Shown here: piece by piece, positions 21,321 through 41,660 of the stretch
Position numbering within the stretch: position 1 is the first letter of the stretch
How the letters are laid out: each line of letters opens with the position of its first letter
Source: Humisphaera borealis
GTDB lineage: Bacteria > Planctomycetota > Phycisphaerae > Tepidisphaerales > Tepidisphaeraceae
Length of the DNA: 64,000 bases
Assembly: GCF_015169395.1 (NCBI RefSeq)
Contig: NZ_CP063458.1
Coordinates: 3,038,001 to 3,102,000 of the forward strand
Direction: 5' to 3'
Notes under the pieces: model-generated
What the model was told of the DNA's origin: nothing
Database searches by the model: none
Seen by the model: the letters and a program-made list of their open reading frames with translations, nothing else
Position numbers and translations under genes: made by a program

Positions 21321-21380
21321 GGCTACTTCCGGACCAGTTACTTCCAGACTGGCTACTTCCGCACCGGCTACTTCCGCACT
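21321..21380. repeat. Four 15-bp tandem repeats spanning the amidase stop codon
   Basis: Units GGCTACTTCCGGACC, AGTTACTTCCAGACT, GGCTACTTCCGCACC and GGCTACTTCCGCACT lie head to tail. On the minus strand the unit encodes the last residues and stop of the amidase (VRK-stop), so duplications have been added after the stop and each carries its own in-frame TAG or TAA. Confidence 0.9.
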
Positions 21381-22186
21381 GGCTCGTACATCAGCTCTCC
21401 GCCCGCCTGGGCCGATGCCGTCCGGGCCACCGATGCCGGCGCTACATCCGCCGGGGCGACCGCGCCCCGGTCGGCCAGCGCCGCCGCGCTCATCCGCCGG
21501 ATGATCGCCATCTGCACGTTGCGTCCCGGGCAGTCGGTCGCCTTGGCGTCGCCGTGCCCGATGATTTCCTTGTTCGACACATGGTACGTCTGCTGGAGAT
21601 ACGCGATCAGCTTCGCCAGCGACCGCAACTGCGCCTCGCTCGGGCGGGTCTGATCGAAGTTCCCCACCAGGCAGATGCCGATGCCGAAGTCGTTGAACTT
21701 GTTGTCCGCCGTCTTGCAGTGGGCACCTTGCTTCTGCTTGGCCCAGCGTGAGCCGACCTCGATCGCGCCGTTGCCGGTATCGGTGCCGTTGCCGATCACA
21801 AAGTGATAGCCCAGCTCGTCCCAGCCCTTGGCGATATGTTCCTTGTTAAACCGCGCCGCCCCGCCCACCGGCGTGGCGCTGTGGTGCACCACGATCCACT
21901 TCCAGTTGCGCGACGCCACCGTCGGCACCCAGTCCCGCGGCACGCCCGACGGCACCGGAACCTGCGCCACCGGCGGCTTGGGCTGCGGCTTGACCACCTG
22001 CGGCGGGGTCTGCACCGGGCCGGGCTTGGGCGGCGTCCACGCCGGCGACTGCGTCACCTGCGGCTGAGGATGCCGGTCCACCATCTCGACGGGGCCCGTT
22101 CGCTGCGCGCAGCCGACCACCGACAACAGCGCCGAAGCGCAAGACAGCAACTTGAAACAGGGGAGCCTTCGCAGCGACATTGCCAT
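21368..22186 (-). CDS. Lipoprotein N-acetylmuramoyl-L-alanine amidase (Amidase_2/PGRP type)
   Basis: The protein has 272 residues. From MAMSLRRLP a lipoprotein signal leads to a lipobox at LSVVGC (Cys26). A Pro/Gln/Lys-rich linker of about 75 residues follows, long enough to cross to the peptidoglycan. The Amidase_2 domain has the Zn ligands in IVVHHSATP and in IIGHGDAKATDCPGRN, plus WDELGYHFVIGNG and GICLVGNFD. It would cleave the bond between N-acetylmuramic acid and L-alanine during wall turnover, or bind peptidoglycan. The ATG at 22186 gives the lipoprotein signal; the open frame further upstream to 22306 would bury it. Confidence 0.9.
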   Translation of the reverse strand: MAMSLRRLPCFKLLSCASALLSVVGCAQRTGPVEMVDRHPQPQVTQSPAWTPPKPGPVQTPPQVVKPQPKPPVAQVPVPSGVPRDWVPTVASRNWKWIVVHHSATPVGGAARFNKEHIAKGWDELGYHFVIGNGTDTGNGAIEVGSRWAKQKQGAHCKTADNKFNDFGIGICLVGNFDQTRPSEAQLRSLAKLIAYLQQTYHVSNKEIIGHGDAKATDCPGRNVQMAIIRRMSAAALADRGAVAPADVAPASVARTASAQAGGELMYEPVRK

Positions 22187-22456
22187 CCTTGGCCTCTGCG
22201 TTGAGGGGACCGTTGCAGGTAAAGGGAACCCGACCGATCCTTCGGCCAGTTCCGACAGAGAGTCCTCTACAGGGTCCGTAACAGTTGTAGTACGCCTTGT
22301 ATTCACAGAACGTTCTATCGAATTTGTCGCCCCGTTTCCAGTAGCCGGATCAGGCAGACCCGCCGGATTTCATCCGCAGGCCCGGGAAGAACCCCCGCAT
22401 TATCGGACCCACCCGGCCTCTCATCGCTCGCCCCGTAGTCGACCAACTCCCATTCC

Positions 22457-23223
22457 GCCAAACGAACCCGACATGAGATCGCCGAACGAACCCAACGCTA
22501 CGCTGCCAAACGAACCCGACGCGACCTTCCGGCCCGCTGTCCGTGACACGGCTTTCTAAGCCGTGCGAGGTGCGTCACACACTAGGAAACGTCCATCTTC
22601 AATCACCTCCTTCCGCCAAACGAACCCAAGGCGACCCCGCCTACGACCCCTTCGAACGACCCCATCAGTGACACGGGCTTCCAGCCCGTGCGAGACGCGT
22701 CACACACCAAGGGACGTTTATCCTCAGTCCCTGCATTCTGGCCAAACGAACCCGAGAGCGCGGGCGAACGCCGAACGTCGAACATCCAACGCCGAACGCC
22801 CAATGCCCCGCGCGGCGCATCGCCGAACGAACCCAAGGATTCGCGTGGCACGGGCGTCCCGCCCGCGTCCCCACCACGTCGCCGAACGAACCCGAGGCGA
22901 CCCCGTCGAACGAGCCCGTCAGTGACACGGGCTTCCAGCCCGTGCATGGTGTGTGATGCTTTAGGCAGCCGTTCAAAACACACATCCTTCACCTCCACTG
23001 CCGAACGAACCCAAGGCGACCTTCCAGCCCGCTGTCCGTGACACGGCTTTCCAAGCCGTGCGAGATGCATCACTCACCAGGAGACGTTTATCTTCAAGCA
23101 CCTGCTTCCCAAATCGCGCGACCCGTTCAAGCGCCGCGCCCGCAGTAAGCGAACGTCACGCACAACCGCGCCGTTCCTGCTTACGTCGTGCCAACTCTCG
23201 CGCGACATTGCCGAACGAACCCA
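22457..23223 (+). repeat. Nine copies of short repeat GCC(A/G)AACGAACCC(A/G)A
   Basis: Near-identical copies begin at about 22457, 22481, 22505, 22615, 22742, 22822, 22881, 23001 and 23211, all in the same orientation, with irregular spacing of 23-210 bases. A degenerate copy is at about 22906. The motif is not a palindrome. Several copies are followed by AGGCGACC. Irregular spacing and lack of conserved spacers rule out a CRISPR array. Confidence 0.85.
22543..23105 (+). repeat. Four interspersed ~70-bp hairpin units (GTGACACGG(G)CTT...)
   Basis: Units start at 22543, 22668, 22922 and 23038. Each begins GTGACACGG then a hairpin such as ACGGGCTTCCAGCCCGT or ACGGCTTTCTAAGCCGT. Three of the four continue with a similar tail (CGTCACACAC, GGGACGTTTATC, CTTCA). 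The first and last units also share the preceding sequence CCCGCTGTCC. They are interleaved with the short GAACGAACCC repeats. Confidence 0.82.
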
Positions 23224-23517
23224 AGTGATCGATCAGCCTCCGTACGTCGTTGCTCCGTCTCCTGGTCTCTCCGTCTCTTCCGCCCACCAAAACCAGACCG
23301 TCCGGCCGATCGTCCCCGATCGCCCGGCTCGCGTCCTTCTCCGCGGAGTCAACGCCAGCCCGACGGATCACACCCGCCATTGCCGCGCACGGAGACCGGC
23401 CGCCGACAGGGCTGCCAAAACCCCGGCCGACGCCCGCACTATTTGTACGGTACATGTTAAGTCTCAGGCGAAAAGTTGCAACCCCTTTTTTCGCCCGCCG
23501 TTTTCTGGAAGTCCGGT

Positions 23518-23645
23518 TTCACCACGAAGGGCACGAAGGCACGAAGCACACGAAGAAAAGTCTTCAACTGAGAACGATGTTTTAACCAGGGACCAGGGCC
23601 GCTTCTTCTTCGTGTACCTTCGTGCCCTTCGTGCCTTCGTGGTGA
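23518..23645. repeat. Long inverted repeat (CACCACGAAGGGCACGAAGG type)
   Basis: The arm from 23518 (TTCACCACGAAGGGCACGAA) is mirrored by the arm ending at 23645 (TTCGTGCCTTCGTGGTGAA), each about 40 bases, around a 50-base centre. It lies just beyond the cyclase stop and may act as its terminator. The CACCACGAAGGCACGAAG sequence is a widespread dispersed repeat type. Confidence 0.8.
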
Positions 23646-23670
23646 ATCCGAGATTCGCGCAGCGAGCCCC

Positions 23671-24507
23671 CTACTCCCCCACCGCAATAATCCGCGCCGG
23701 CCCCCCGCTCCCGTTCTCGATCTTCAACGGCAACGCGATGAACGTCGCCCCCGCCGGCGGAAGCCGGCCCACGTTGGCGACGTTCTCGAACATCGGCTTG
23801 TTCGCGCCGTTCATGATCTGATGCACCCGGAAATCCTTCGACTGCCCGCGGTCCACGCTCGCCGTGTCCACCGCGATCGCGGCGACGTCGCGCTGCGTCA
23901 CCAGAAACGTCGCCGCCTCGGGGGAGAAGCCGGGGAACCGCAGGTTGTCCACGTCCAGCGGCACATCGGTGCCCAGATACCGCTTCTTGTCCGGCCACCG
24001 CTCGCCCCAGCCGCTGTGCATGACGACGATCGCGCCGCGCGGGAGCCGGCCATGGCTCCGCTCCCAGCCCAGCAGGTCGTCCACGGTCAGCAGGTAGTCG
24101 GCGTCGGCGGCGCAGGCGCCCCGCACATCGATGACGGCGGCCGGGCCGATGCAGTTGGACAGGGGAACCTCGCCGCTGGTGCGTTTGCCCTCGGCGAAAT
24201 GAATCGGCGCATCCATGTGCGTGCCGCCGTGCTCGGCCATACTGATGTTGTTGGCGGCGTAGAAGTACCCGCCCGGCGTGCGGCCGTAGGCAACCCGCCG
24301 CAGCTTAAAAGGCTCGGCGGTCGGCCAGTAGATCGTCTGATCGCCGAACGCGTAAGACAGGTCGATCACCTTCGCCGGGTCGATCGCGACCGGTCGCGGC
24401 GATGGGTCACCCCCAGCGCCATGGTTGGCGCCACCCGGTTTGCCACCCGTCGCACACCCCGTGAAGACCATCAGCATCGCCACGACCGTCAGGGAGATGG
24501 ATCGCAT
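23671..24507 (-). CDS. Lipoprotein cyclase-family protein (kynurenine formamidase-like fold)
   Basis: The 278-residue protein has a lipoprotein signal (MRSISLTVVAMLMVFTGC, Cys18) and the cyclase-family metal motif HGGTHMDAPIHF, followed by the family features DVRGAC, VVMHSGWGERW and IAVDTASVDRG. Relatives are Mn/Zn amidohydrolases such as bacterial kynurenine formamidase or isatin hydrolase, but those are mostly cytoplasmic; this one is predicted to be anchored outside the inner membrane. The substrate cannot be inferred. It is followed by a large inverted repeat and stands alone. Confidence 0.88.
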   Translation of the reverse strand: MRSISLTVVAMLMVFTGCATGGKPGGANHGAGGDPSPRPVAIDPAKVIDLSYAFGDQTIYWPTAEPFKLRRVAYGRTPGGYFYAANNISMAEHGGTHMDAPIHFAEGKRTSGEVPLSNCIGPAAVIDVRGACAADADYLLTVDDLLGWERSHGRLPRGAIVVMHSGWGERWPDKKRYLGTDVPLDVDNLRFPGFSPEAATFLVTQRDVAAIAVDTASVDRGQSKDFRVHQIMNGANKPMFENVANVGRLPPAGATFIALPLKIENGSGGPARIIAVGE

Positions 24508-39944: not shown

Positions 39945-41660
39945 TCAAAACAACGAATACCGCTGTGCCAGCGGCAGCACTTCGGACGGTTCACACTTGA
40001 GGGAGACACCGTCGGCGGTGACTTCGTACGTTTCGGGGTCGACGGTGATCTTTGGCGTGGCGTCGTTGTGCTTCATGTCTTTCTTGCCGATGGTGCGGCA
40101 GTTCATGACGGGGGTTAGCTTCTTGACGACGCCATAACGCTGCACCTCGCCGGCCTGCAGCGACGCGGCGCTGACGAACGCCAGCGACGCCCCGCCGAGC
40201 GCGCGGCCCATCGAGCCGAACTGCGGGCGCATGTAGACCGGTTGCGGCGTGGGGATGCTGGCGTTGGGGTCACCCATCTGGCCCCATGAGATCACGCCGC
40301 CCTTCAGCACCAGTTCAGGCTTCATGCCGAACATCGCCGGCTTCCAGATGACCAGGTCGGCGAGCTTGCCGACTTCGACTGACCCGACCACATGCCCGAC
40401 GCCGTGAGCGATCGCCGGGTTGATCGTGTACTTGGCGACGTACCGCTTGATGCGGGCGTTGTCGTGCTCGGCGGGGTCGCCGGGCAATTTGCCTCGCTGG
40501 CGTTTCATCTTGTCGCCGGTCTGCCAGGTGCGGGTGATGACTTCGCCAATCCGCCCCATCGCCTGGCTGTCGGAGCTGATGATGCTGATGGCGCCCAGGT
40601 CGTGCAGGATGTCCTCGGCGGCGATGGTTTCGCCGCGGATACGGCTCTCGGCGAACGACACGTCTTCCGGCAGGTTCGCATCGAGATGATGGCACACCAT
40701 CAGCATGTCGAGGTGCTCATCGAGCGTGTTGACGGTGTACGGCCGGGTGGGATTGGTGCTGCTGGGGATGACGTTGGGCTCGCCGCACACGCGGATGATG
40801 TCCGGTGCGTGGCCGCCGCCTGCACCTTCGCTGTGATAGGTGTGGATCGTGCGGCCTTTGAACGCGGCGATGCTCGTTTCGACGAAGCCGGATTCGTTGA
40901 GCGTGTCGGTGTGGATCGTCGCCTGCACGTCGTACTGGTCGCAGATGTCGAGGCAGCAGTCGATCGCGGCGGGTGTCGTTCCCCAGTCTTCGTGCAGCTT
41001 CAGGCCGATCGCGCCGCCGAGGATCTGCTCGTGCAATCCTTCGGGCTTGGCGCTGTTGCCCTTGCCGGTGAAGCCGAAGTTGAGGGGCAGAGTGTCAGTG
41101 GCCTGCAGCATCATTCGGAGGTGGTACGCGCCTGGGGTGCAGGTGGTGGCACAGGTGCCGGTGGCCGGGCCGGTGCCGCCGCCGATCATGGTCGTCAGGC
41201 CGGCGGCGATCGCTTCGTACGCCTGCTGGGGGCAGATGTAATGGATGTGCGTATCCAGCCCGCCGGCGGTGATGATGAGGCCTTCTCCGGCGATGACTTC
41301 GGTCGTGACGCCGACGATCATGTTCTTGCCCACGCCGGCCATCACGTCGGGGTTGCCGGCCTTGCCGATGCCGGCGATCAGGCCGTTTTTAATGCCGATG
41401 TCGGCTTTGTAGATGCCGGTGTAGTCGATGACCAGGGCGTTGGTGATGACGCAGTCAAGGGCATCGGCCTGGGAGACGCCGGTGGCCTGGCCCATGCCGT
41501 CACGGATGGTTTTGCCGCCGCCGAACTTGCACTCGTCGCCGTAGACGGTGAAGTCTTTCTCGACTTGCAGGACGAGGGAGGTATCGCCCAGGCGAACGCG
41601 GTCGCCGGTGGTGGGACCGTAGATGTCGGCGTAGGCGGATCGGGGGATTCGGTGTGGCAT
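39945..41660 (-). CDS. ureC: Urease subunit alpha
   Basis: The 571-residue subunit carries the di-nickel site that hydrolyses urea to ammonia and carbamate in the cytoplasm. Seen residues: His pair in [10 protein letters not shown], carbamylated Lys221 in [10 protein letters not shown], His in [10 protein letters not shown] and [12 protein letters not shown], mobile-flap Cys323-His324 in [10 protein letters not shown], and Asp in [10 protein letters not shown]. All expected catalytic residues are present and the length is normal. The start [10 protein letters not shown] is chosen over an upstream ATG because the family starts at this point. It is the last gene of the urease operon, after fused ureAB. 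Confidence 0.98.

Follow-up and report, generated by a model that had tools for sequence, protein, structure and literature searches.

We analysed a 64-kb stretch of the Humisphaera borealis genome, hereafter the window (G000:C1:3038001-3102000, where G000 denotes this genome, of one contig of 7,189,892 bases). At 22457-23224 it carries an array of nine exact copies of the repeat GCC[AG]AACGAACCC[AG]A, all on the plus strand (starts at 22457, 22481, 22505, 22615, 22741, 22822, 22881, 23000 and 23210; final base 23224). Scanning the whole window detected no copy on the minus strand and none outside this interval. In the following, unit sense denotes the strand on which the repeat reads TYGGGTTCGTTYGGC, and a module shared between loci lies on the 5' side of the arrays. 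In our reading, the array would be the 3' part of a minus-strand unit that comprises promoter-like sequence (23481-23445), a leader (23450-23231) and the repeats (23224-22457). The features of the locus are:

22457..23224, minus strand: array of nine exact TYGGGTTCGTTYGGC copies (GCCRAACGAACCCRA on the plus strand), putative 3' part of the unit (pattern scan)
23210..23224, minus strand: first repeat in unit sense, with TGATCGATCA in front of it, as seen in a number of other units
22654..22663, minus strand: degenerate repeat copy inside the array, GAACGACCCC on the plus strand (one-mismatch scan)
22908..22917, minus strand: degenerate repeat copy inside the array, GAACGAGCCC on the plus strand (one-mismatch scan)
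23231..23450, minus strand: leader with a strong predicted fold on this strand only (z -3.98, 0 of 200 shuffles)
23364..23376, minus strand: conserved small leader hairpin CGGGTGTGATCCG
23445..23459, minus strand: promoter-like box TAACATGTACCGTAC, type T1 (mismatch scan)
23476..23481, minus strand: TTGCAA, a -35-like box 16 nt upstream of TAACAT
22543..22566, plus strand: companion hairpin repeat GTGACACGG..., resembling repetitive extragenic palindromic (REP) sequences, interleaved with the array and outside the unit
22668..22690, plus strand: companion hairpin repeat GTGACACGGGCTTCCAGCCCGTG
22922..22944, plus strand: companion hairpin repeat
23038..23061, plus strand: companion hairpin repeat
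21368..22306, minus strand: downstream gene in unit sense, amidase/PGRP-like by eye, outside the unit
23671..24507, minus strand: gene upstream of the unit and not part of it, resembling the cyclase family by eye

The initial annotation of this DNA, made from the letters alone, had described nine near-identical copies in one orientation, irregularly spaced, without palindromic form and interleaved with a different hairpin repeat, and each of these points was confirmed. Start-to-start distances are 24, 24, 110, 126, 81, 59, 119 and 210, and are thus irregular, and GAACGAACCC is non-palindromic. Allowing one mismatch, GAACGAACCC occurs at 20 sites in the 64 kb, compared to 6.5 +/- 2.6 in shuffled sequence, and none of 100 shuffles reached 20. 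The RNA fold of the array itself is unremarkable (z -0.53). The annotation was also right to set aside three familiar repeat types. A tandem satellite does not fit, as Tandem Repeats Finder (TRF) detects no more than 2.8 period-24 copies, located at the edge of an otherwise irregular array. In CRISPR (clustered regularly interspaced short palindromic repeats) loci, repeats measure about 21-48 nt and spacers are regular and of similar length. The arrays studied here likewise combine one-orientation direct repeats with variable spacers, but the repeats are 15 nt long, the spacings in the window run from 24 to 210, the spacers are mostly 4-9 nt or irregular, and dozens of small arrays exist. REP sequences are excluded by the lack of a palindrome in GAACGAACCC; it is the interleaved hairpin that fits REP instead. 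This companion, recognizable by GTGACACGGS at 22543, 22668, 22922 and 23038 within the array, belongs to a hairpin repeat, CACGGGCTTCCAGCCCGTG, with 102 genomic occurrences mostly in +/- inverted pairs about 72-81 nt apart. The pairing is a REPIN-like architecture, and the family is separate from the array repeat; it is plentiful in a second genome of the same genus (G396) as well.

Genome-wide, the 15-mer GCCRAACGAACCCRA has 399 exact copies (162 forward, 237 reverse), while the reversed pattern used as control has 0, far above the chance-level counts that the annotation had named as a refutation. The 219 copies listed among these 399 fall into at least 76 clusters (33 plus, 43 minus), none of which is of mixed orientation when the exact pattern is applied. 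The surroundings of all 76 listed clusters were extracted and form the basis of all array, promoter and flank counts given below. A looser pattern finds 466 copies around them, 2 to 11 per array, with interval peaks at 24 (97 cases), 19 (39) and 23 (17), making 24 the genome-wide favourite; a stray copy in the opposite direction is present in 4 of the 76 loci. From these data we put the number of such intergenic units in this genome at about 80, most of them with a promoter-like site of their own.

Several simple explanations were dismissed at this level. The strand bias relative to replication that had been suggested as a check was absent: array orientation (33 plus, 43 minus) gives p 0.30, and the best split over any assumed origin is 42 of 76. 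A KOPS-like (FtsK-orienting polar sequence) role linked to replication was rejected for the lack of such bias among the 76 listed clusters. Two genes of the genome exceed the curated cut-off for the DnaA family (G000:C1:389134 and 1058508). The genes flanking the 76 loci, as called with a home-made gene caller, are oriented every way, so that the unit is more than a leader or operator of an adjacent gene. A coding repeat was rejected likewise, since spacings of 19, 23 and 24 do not keep one frame and the frame varies among the genes described below. Of note, locus L062 has two repeat copies in frame within a long membrane-protein-like open reading frame (ORF). Insertion sequences lie inside or beside the arrays at L032, L080, L086, L095, L074 and L084, and a near-identical transposase-like ORF is common to L032, L080, L086 and L095.

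Two types of promoter-like sequence were recognized: T1 consists of TTGCA, 16-17 nt and [CT]TAACATATACCGTAC, and T2 of a TTGNAC-like box, about 16 nt and CCGTACAATATACTAACAT. Leave-one-out matrices were run over the 700 nt preceding each array on the strand reading GGGTTCGTT, with the second-highest control score as threshold. T1 was found 5' of 39 of the 76 arrays and T2 5' of 16. At the same thresholds, the antisense upstream control yielded two hits per type and the downstream control none on either strand. Four further arrays are tails of protein genes whose T2-type promoter lies farther off, bringing the arrays with promoter-like sequence to 59 of 76. The coupling also holds in the reverse direction. 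With at most one mismatch, TAACATATACCGTAC has 29 sites in the genome and 28 of them are followed by an array: 26 are correctly directed 5' of listed arrays, two have five copies downstream, and only one (2014515) has none. Even with up to three mismatches, the T1 site at 23445-23459 on the minus strand is the single one in the window. T1 units are alike from about the -35-like box onwards and their similarity fades within the array; among several units the leader occurs in duplicated, decaying form.

The leader of the window unit folds on the minus strand with a predicted -109.7 kcal/mol (z -3.98), a value equalled by 0 of 200 shuffles, compared to z -0.89 on the plus strand. A GGGTGTGATC-type motif is found upstream of 32 of the 76 arrays. 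In an alignment of 17 T1 leaders, the core, i.e. an outer helix plus the CGGGTGTGATCCG hairpin, is paired in 97.5% of cells vs 35-51% in slid controls. Apart from one pair, most changes in this alignment replace G-C by G-U and keep pairing on the unit strand only. Rfam gave nothing at the gathering threshold over 22300-23700 (best E 0.38 in a permissive search), and a known RNA family was thus rejected for this region.

Paralogous ORFs overlap 4 of the 76 listed arrays with their 3' ends. They encode a protein family with the signature NGAKSRGPxTxxGKxxxxxNAxKHGL (alignment A1), which is an orphan in that it has no Pfam match above cut-off and no NCBIfam family. Eleven hits to the family were obtained in the own genome, ten of which end in 2-5 repeat copies and one of which (2104117) does not. 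The layout promoter, ORF, 3' repeats thus recurs in 10 of 11 genes, with a T2-type promoter in seven and the variant ATCCGTACACTTATAGAACAT in three. In the three variant genes the in-frame repeats translate into LGSFG-like residues, and in others another frame is used (SRVRSAE). As the reading frame differs between family genes, the motif appears to matter at the nucleic-acid level. The annotation had also raised a degraded coding gene, which these data speak against: among the 76 array loci, tblastn (E 0.01) detects the family protein in no more than four, all of them with intact genes, and no trace of it in the other 72. One non-coding unit, L064, shares 71-79% DNA similarity with the 5' region of family genes; beyond L064 such similarity is not conspicuous in other units.

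A scan for the repeat covered 392 genomes of the phylum, among which G000 is the sole member of its own order. Only G000 is strongly enriched, the 391 others having at most 17 sites (highest in G037, 17). Within the order (26 genomes), seven genomes have at least 17 sites, namely G000 (423), G402 (52), G397 (35), G407 (29), G414 (25), G401 (17) and G406 (17). The protein family is present in 7 of these 7 vs 3 of the 19 others (Fisher p 1.8e-4, uncorrected for kinship). The same-genus genome G396, which is 65% complete, has 6 repeat sites, three weak family hits and no enrichment. The genomes share the repeat core TTGGGTTCGTT, and the 3' end of the repeat varies by genus (CGGC in the own genome, YGTT in G397, TTGY at most loci of the others), as expected if the repeat follows a protein that recognizes it. 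Exact repeats lie in or after the tail of the family gene in 5 of 5 cases in G406, 3 of 3 in G401, 1 of 1 in G402 and 1 of 3 in G397, and the tails in G406, G401 and G402 use differing reading frames. No exact tail repeat is seen in G396 (0 of 3) and G415 (0 of 1), and in G413 one of two loci has copies outside the tail. In a collection of named genomes, 25 family loci comprise 23 Acidobacterial records (among which we presume the Solibacter and Sulfopaludibacter records to belong), one from Myxococcus and one from Planctomycetota. Three of these 25 carry AACGAACC (5 copies), always in the ORF tail, in gene sense and in Acidobacterial records, again in differing frames. The 25 family loci extracted from the phylum outside the order have no array and at most two 8-mers each. 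A side observation concerns G402, where 7 of 8 fetched loci (L117-L124) contain a dispersed unit in which two TTGGGTTCGTTTTGY-like copies, at a distance of 87 nt from each other, enclose a hairpin.

A possible origin of the family is suggested by four Acidobacterial loci (L180, L181, L184 and L186), in which the NGAKSRGP...HGL domain and a terminase-large-like ATPase are joined in a single ORF. The L180 protein (P0001) matches phrog_2, terminase large subunit, at residues 155-358 (4e-11), and weakly phrog_9231, terminase small subunit, at residues 11-128 (7.9e-4). In alignment A2, 3 of 12 members match phrog_9231, likewise weakly (best 1e-4). An AlphaFold model of the family protein (pLDDT 79) is all-helical, with N-terminal helices and a long helical hairpin; when the partner protein was compared with solved structures, by sequence and by structure, no significant match emerged. 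The pac region of phage SPP1 is reported to consist of direct repeats at promoters and at the start of the small terminase gene, and the isolated DNA-binding domain of the SF6 protein to have little preference for the repeats (PMC4737164). It is this arrangement of direct repeats at a small terminase gene in SPP1 that makes the terminase connection suggestive, and we regard a terminase-small-subunit origin of the family as a lead rather than a result. The likeness to SPP1 lies in the weak match of the partner family to terminase small subunits; unlike in the phage, about 80 copies reside on a chromosome and the repeats stand at the 3' end. A phage origin of the arrays themselves was rejected: paired 11-mers occur in 17 viral contigs, none of which has the family motif, and they are mostly low-GC repeats that look coding-like by eye. 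Searches for viral relatives of the family found none, and four phage records match P0001 in its terminase-large-like part only.

Directly visible in the genomes are the repeats, their single orientation, the coupling of arrays to promoter-like sites and to family genes, the co-occurrence of repeat and family across genomes, and the strand-specific predicted fold of the window leader. From these we infer that the units are transcribed, that a protein binds the repeat and that the units spread. With somewhat more confidence than doubt, we therefore interpret the window array as part of one non-coding transcription unit among a dispersed family that has a cognate protein, sharing the dispersal logic of REP and REP-associated tyrosine transposase (RAYT) systems and not their sequence. 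The unit would be transcribed leftwards from about 23440 on the minus strand, leader first and array after. Ten sister units carry an ORF between promoter-like site and repeats, encoding an orphan helical protein that may be distant kin of phage terminase small subunits. This protein most likely recognizes the repeat, either as DNA, which would point to spread or packaging-like handling, or as transcript RNA, which would make the repeats a decoy. The non-coding units may be non-autonomous dependants of the coding units, able to spread or to persist by virtue of the promoter and repeat tail that both share. The annotation had called the array one of unknown nature; the feature is real, and it can be described more sharply as one of about 80 units with a promoter-like site and a structured leader (23231-23481). 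Its suggestions of a protein-binding array and of a relic of a mobile element pointed in the right direction. The annotation missed that the array is probably the 3' part of a minus-strand unit with a promoter-like site and a structured leader, that about 80 such units exist and that sister units encode a protein. A recombination hotspot found no support.

Several observations weigh against this interpretation. In the T1 leader alignment only one pair, in 8 sequences, is changed at both of its positions. Taken together, the 39 T1 leaders show a modest strand difference (mean z -1.78 sense vs -0.95 antisense; the sense strand has the lower value in 28 of 39), and 16 T2 leaders fold without a difference between the strands. 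In 17 of the 76 arrays the promoter stays below threshold, with variants visible by eye in several. G401 and G406 are, with 17 sites each, no richer than G037 elsewhere in the phylum; reclassifying both as non-rich leaves the family in 5 of 5 vs 5 of 21 genomes. Exact tail repeats are missing in G414 (0 of 5), G407 (0 of 1, truncated) and two of the three G397 genes. Moreover, gene sense reads AACGAACCC in the relatives and GGGTTCGTT in the own genome, i.e. the orientation is opposite. Own-genome family members reach only E 0.49 against terminase small subunits, and the predicted fold has no significant Foldseek match in PDB or BFVD (E 0.001). Finally, neither an empty site nor a target duplication was found, the search in G396 being without the flanking genes, so that mobility remains something we infer; an inverted repeat bracketing the unit is likewise absent from the window.

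The same observations can be arranged differently. The units could be non-coding RNAs whose repeats titrate a protein that binds RNA, for which the family protein is a candidate, and would then be regulatory rather than selfish. CsrB and CsrC, the model for such decoys, are single RNAs with many copies of a short motif, and the units resemble them in the number of short motifs per unit, provided that they are transcribed. A promoter-like site of their own, a structured leader whose fold in the window is biased to the sense strand, the many short identical motifs in one orientation and a promoter type common to protein genes and non-coding units all agree with a decoy. However, about 80 loci with about 400 sites are far beyond the need of known decoys, which occupy few loci and have an unrelated motif and partner; the array lacks a special fold (z -0.53), and G396 shows no enrichment. 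We thus consider a decoy unlikely, if worth keeping in mind. Even less probable, in our judgement, are DNA operator arrays, in which the repeats would bind a repressor or nucleoid protein that controls the neighbouring promoter-like sequence. The preferred spacings of 24 and 19, the single orientation, the promoter-like sites adjoining the repeats and the position of several G397 arrays near gene starts (by eye) would suit this idea, but the promoter-like site is not covered by the array, which starts tens to hundreds of nt farther downstream, spacings of 19 and 24 are half a helical turn apart, and the orientation of flanking genes is mixed.

The repeats might also have no function and accumulate between genes, homogenized by slippage and gene conversion while hitching on a few duplicated loci. 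Such a process is compatible with the intermixing of arrays with REP-like hairpins, simple tracts and insertion sequences, and with the decaying duplications of several leaders. It would not yield, though, the one-orientation coupling of promoter and array at 28 of 29 sites, nor the coupling to 10 of 11 family genes or the co-occurrence across genera, and we regard it as quite improbable. Decayed 3' ends of family genes are the least credible source, and for the window unit such a pseudogene is largely refuted by the tblastn result. Ten family genes do end in the repeat, three of them with in-frame LGSFG-like codons, and L064 retains part of the 5' region of the gene, but the family protein is confined to the four loci with intact genes and L064 stands out among the units in its 5' similarity.

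Returning to the preferred interpretation, a dispersed unit family with a cognate protein, one of its closest parallels is the REP/RAYT system, in which a short dispersed intergenic repeat of lineage-specific sequence accompanies a chromosomal gene and lies on the flanks of the gene copies (PMC3733652). The resemblance to REP or REPIN plus RAYT (REPtrons) lies in these traits, i.e. a dispersed intergenic, lineage-specific repeat tied to a repeat-flanked gene. In contrast, the present repeat has no palindrome and no GTAG/CGTC tag, forms direct-repeat arrays and has its own promoter-like site, and the partner is no recognized tyrosine transposase, the Y1 family not having been searched in the genome. 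Pairs of long and short interspersed nuclear elements (LINEs and SINEs) offer an analogy, as autonomous and non-autonomous partners there share promoter region and 3' tail. Coding and non-coding units here would correspond to such pairs in sharing both parts, unlike them in being bacterial and in having no recognized reverse transcriptase or transposase. The feature is real and uncommon; its parts, a dispersed repeat, a cognate-looking gene and non-coding relatives, are of known kinds, and their combination matches no system that we can name. Literature searches found no description of the repeat. A bolder reading, which we advance tentatively and think more probably wrong than right, is that the units are an undescribed class of chromosomal element, in which a family derived from terminase small subunits is joined to a cognate direct-repeat tail common to coding units and to many promoter-bearing, structured non-coding units that would depend on it; the family in question is seen here in Planctomycetota and Acidobacteria. 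If true, there would be a repeat-protein partnership beyond the RAYT/REP world, a chromosomal job for a terminase-like domain and a suggested function for an orphan family without Pfam or NCBIfam entry. A test system is at hand: a single complete genome holds about 80 units along with ten protein genes, and both relatives that possess the system and relatives that lack it are available.

Two further features of the window were noted. An imperfect inverted repeat of CACGAAGG-type units lies at 23514-23650, downstream of the cyclase-like gene, and recurs near the family genes L222-L223. The plus strand at 41216-41508 gives an unexpected full-length Rfam match (120 bits) to the 5' ureB small RNA (RF02514), a family whose name derives from Helicobacter.
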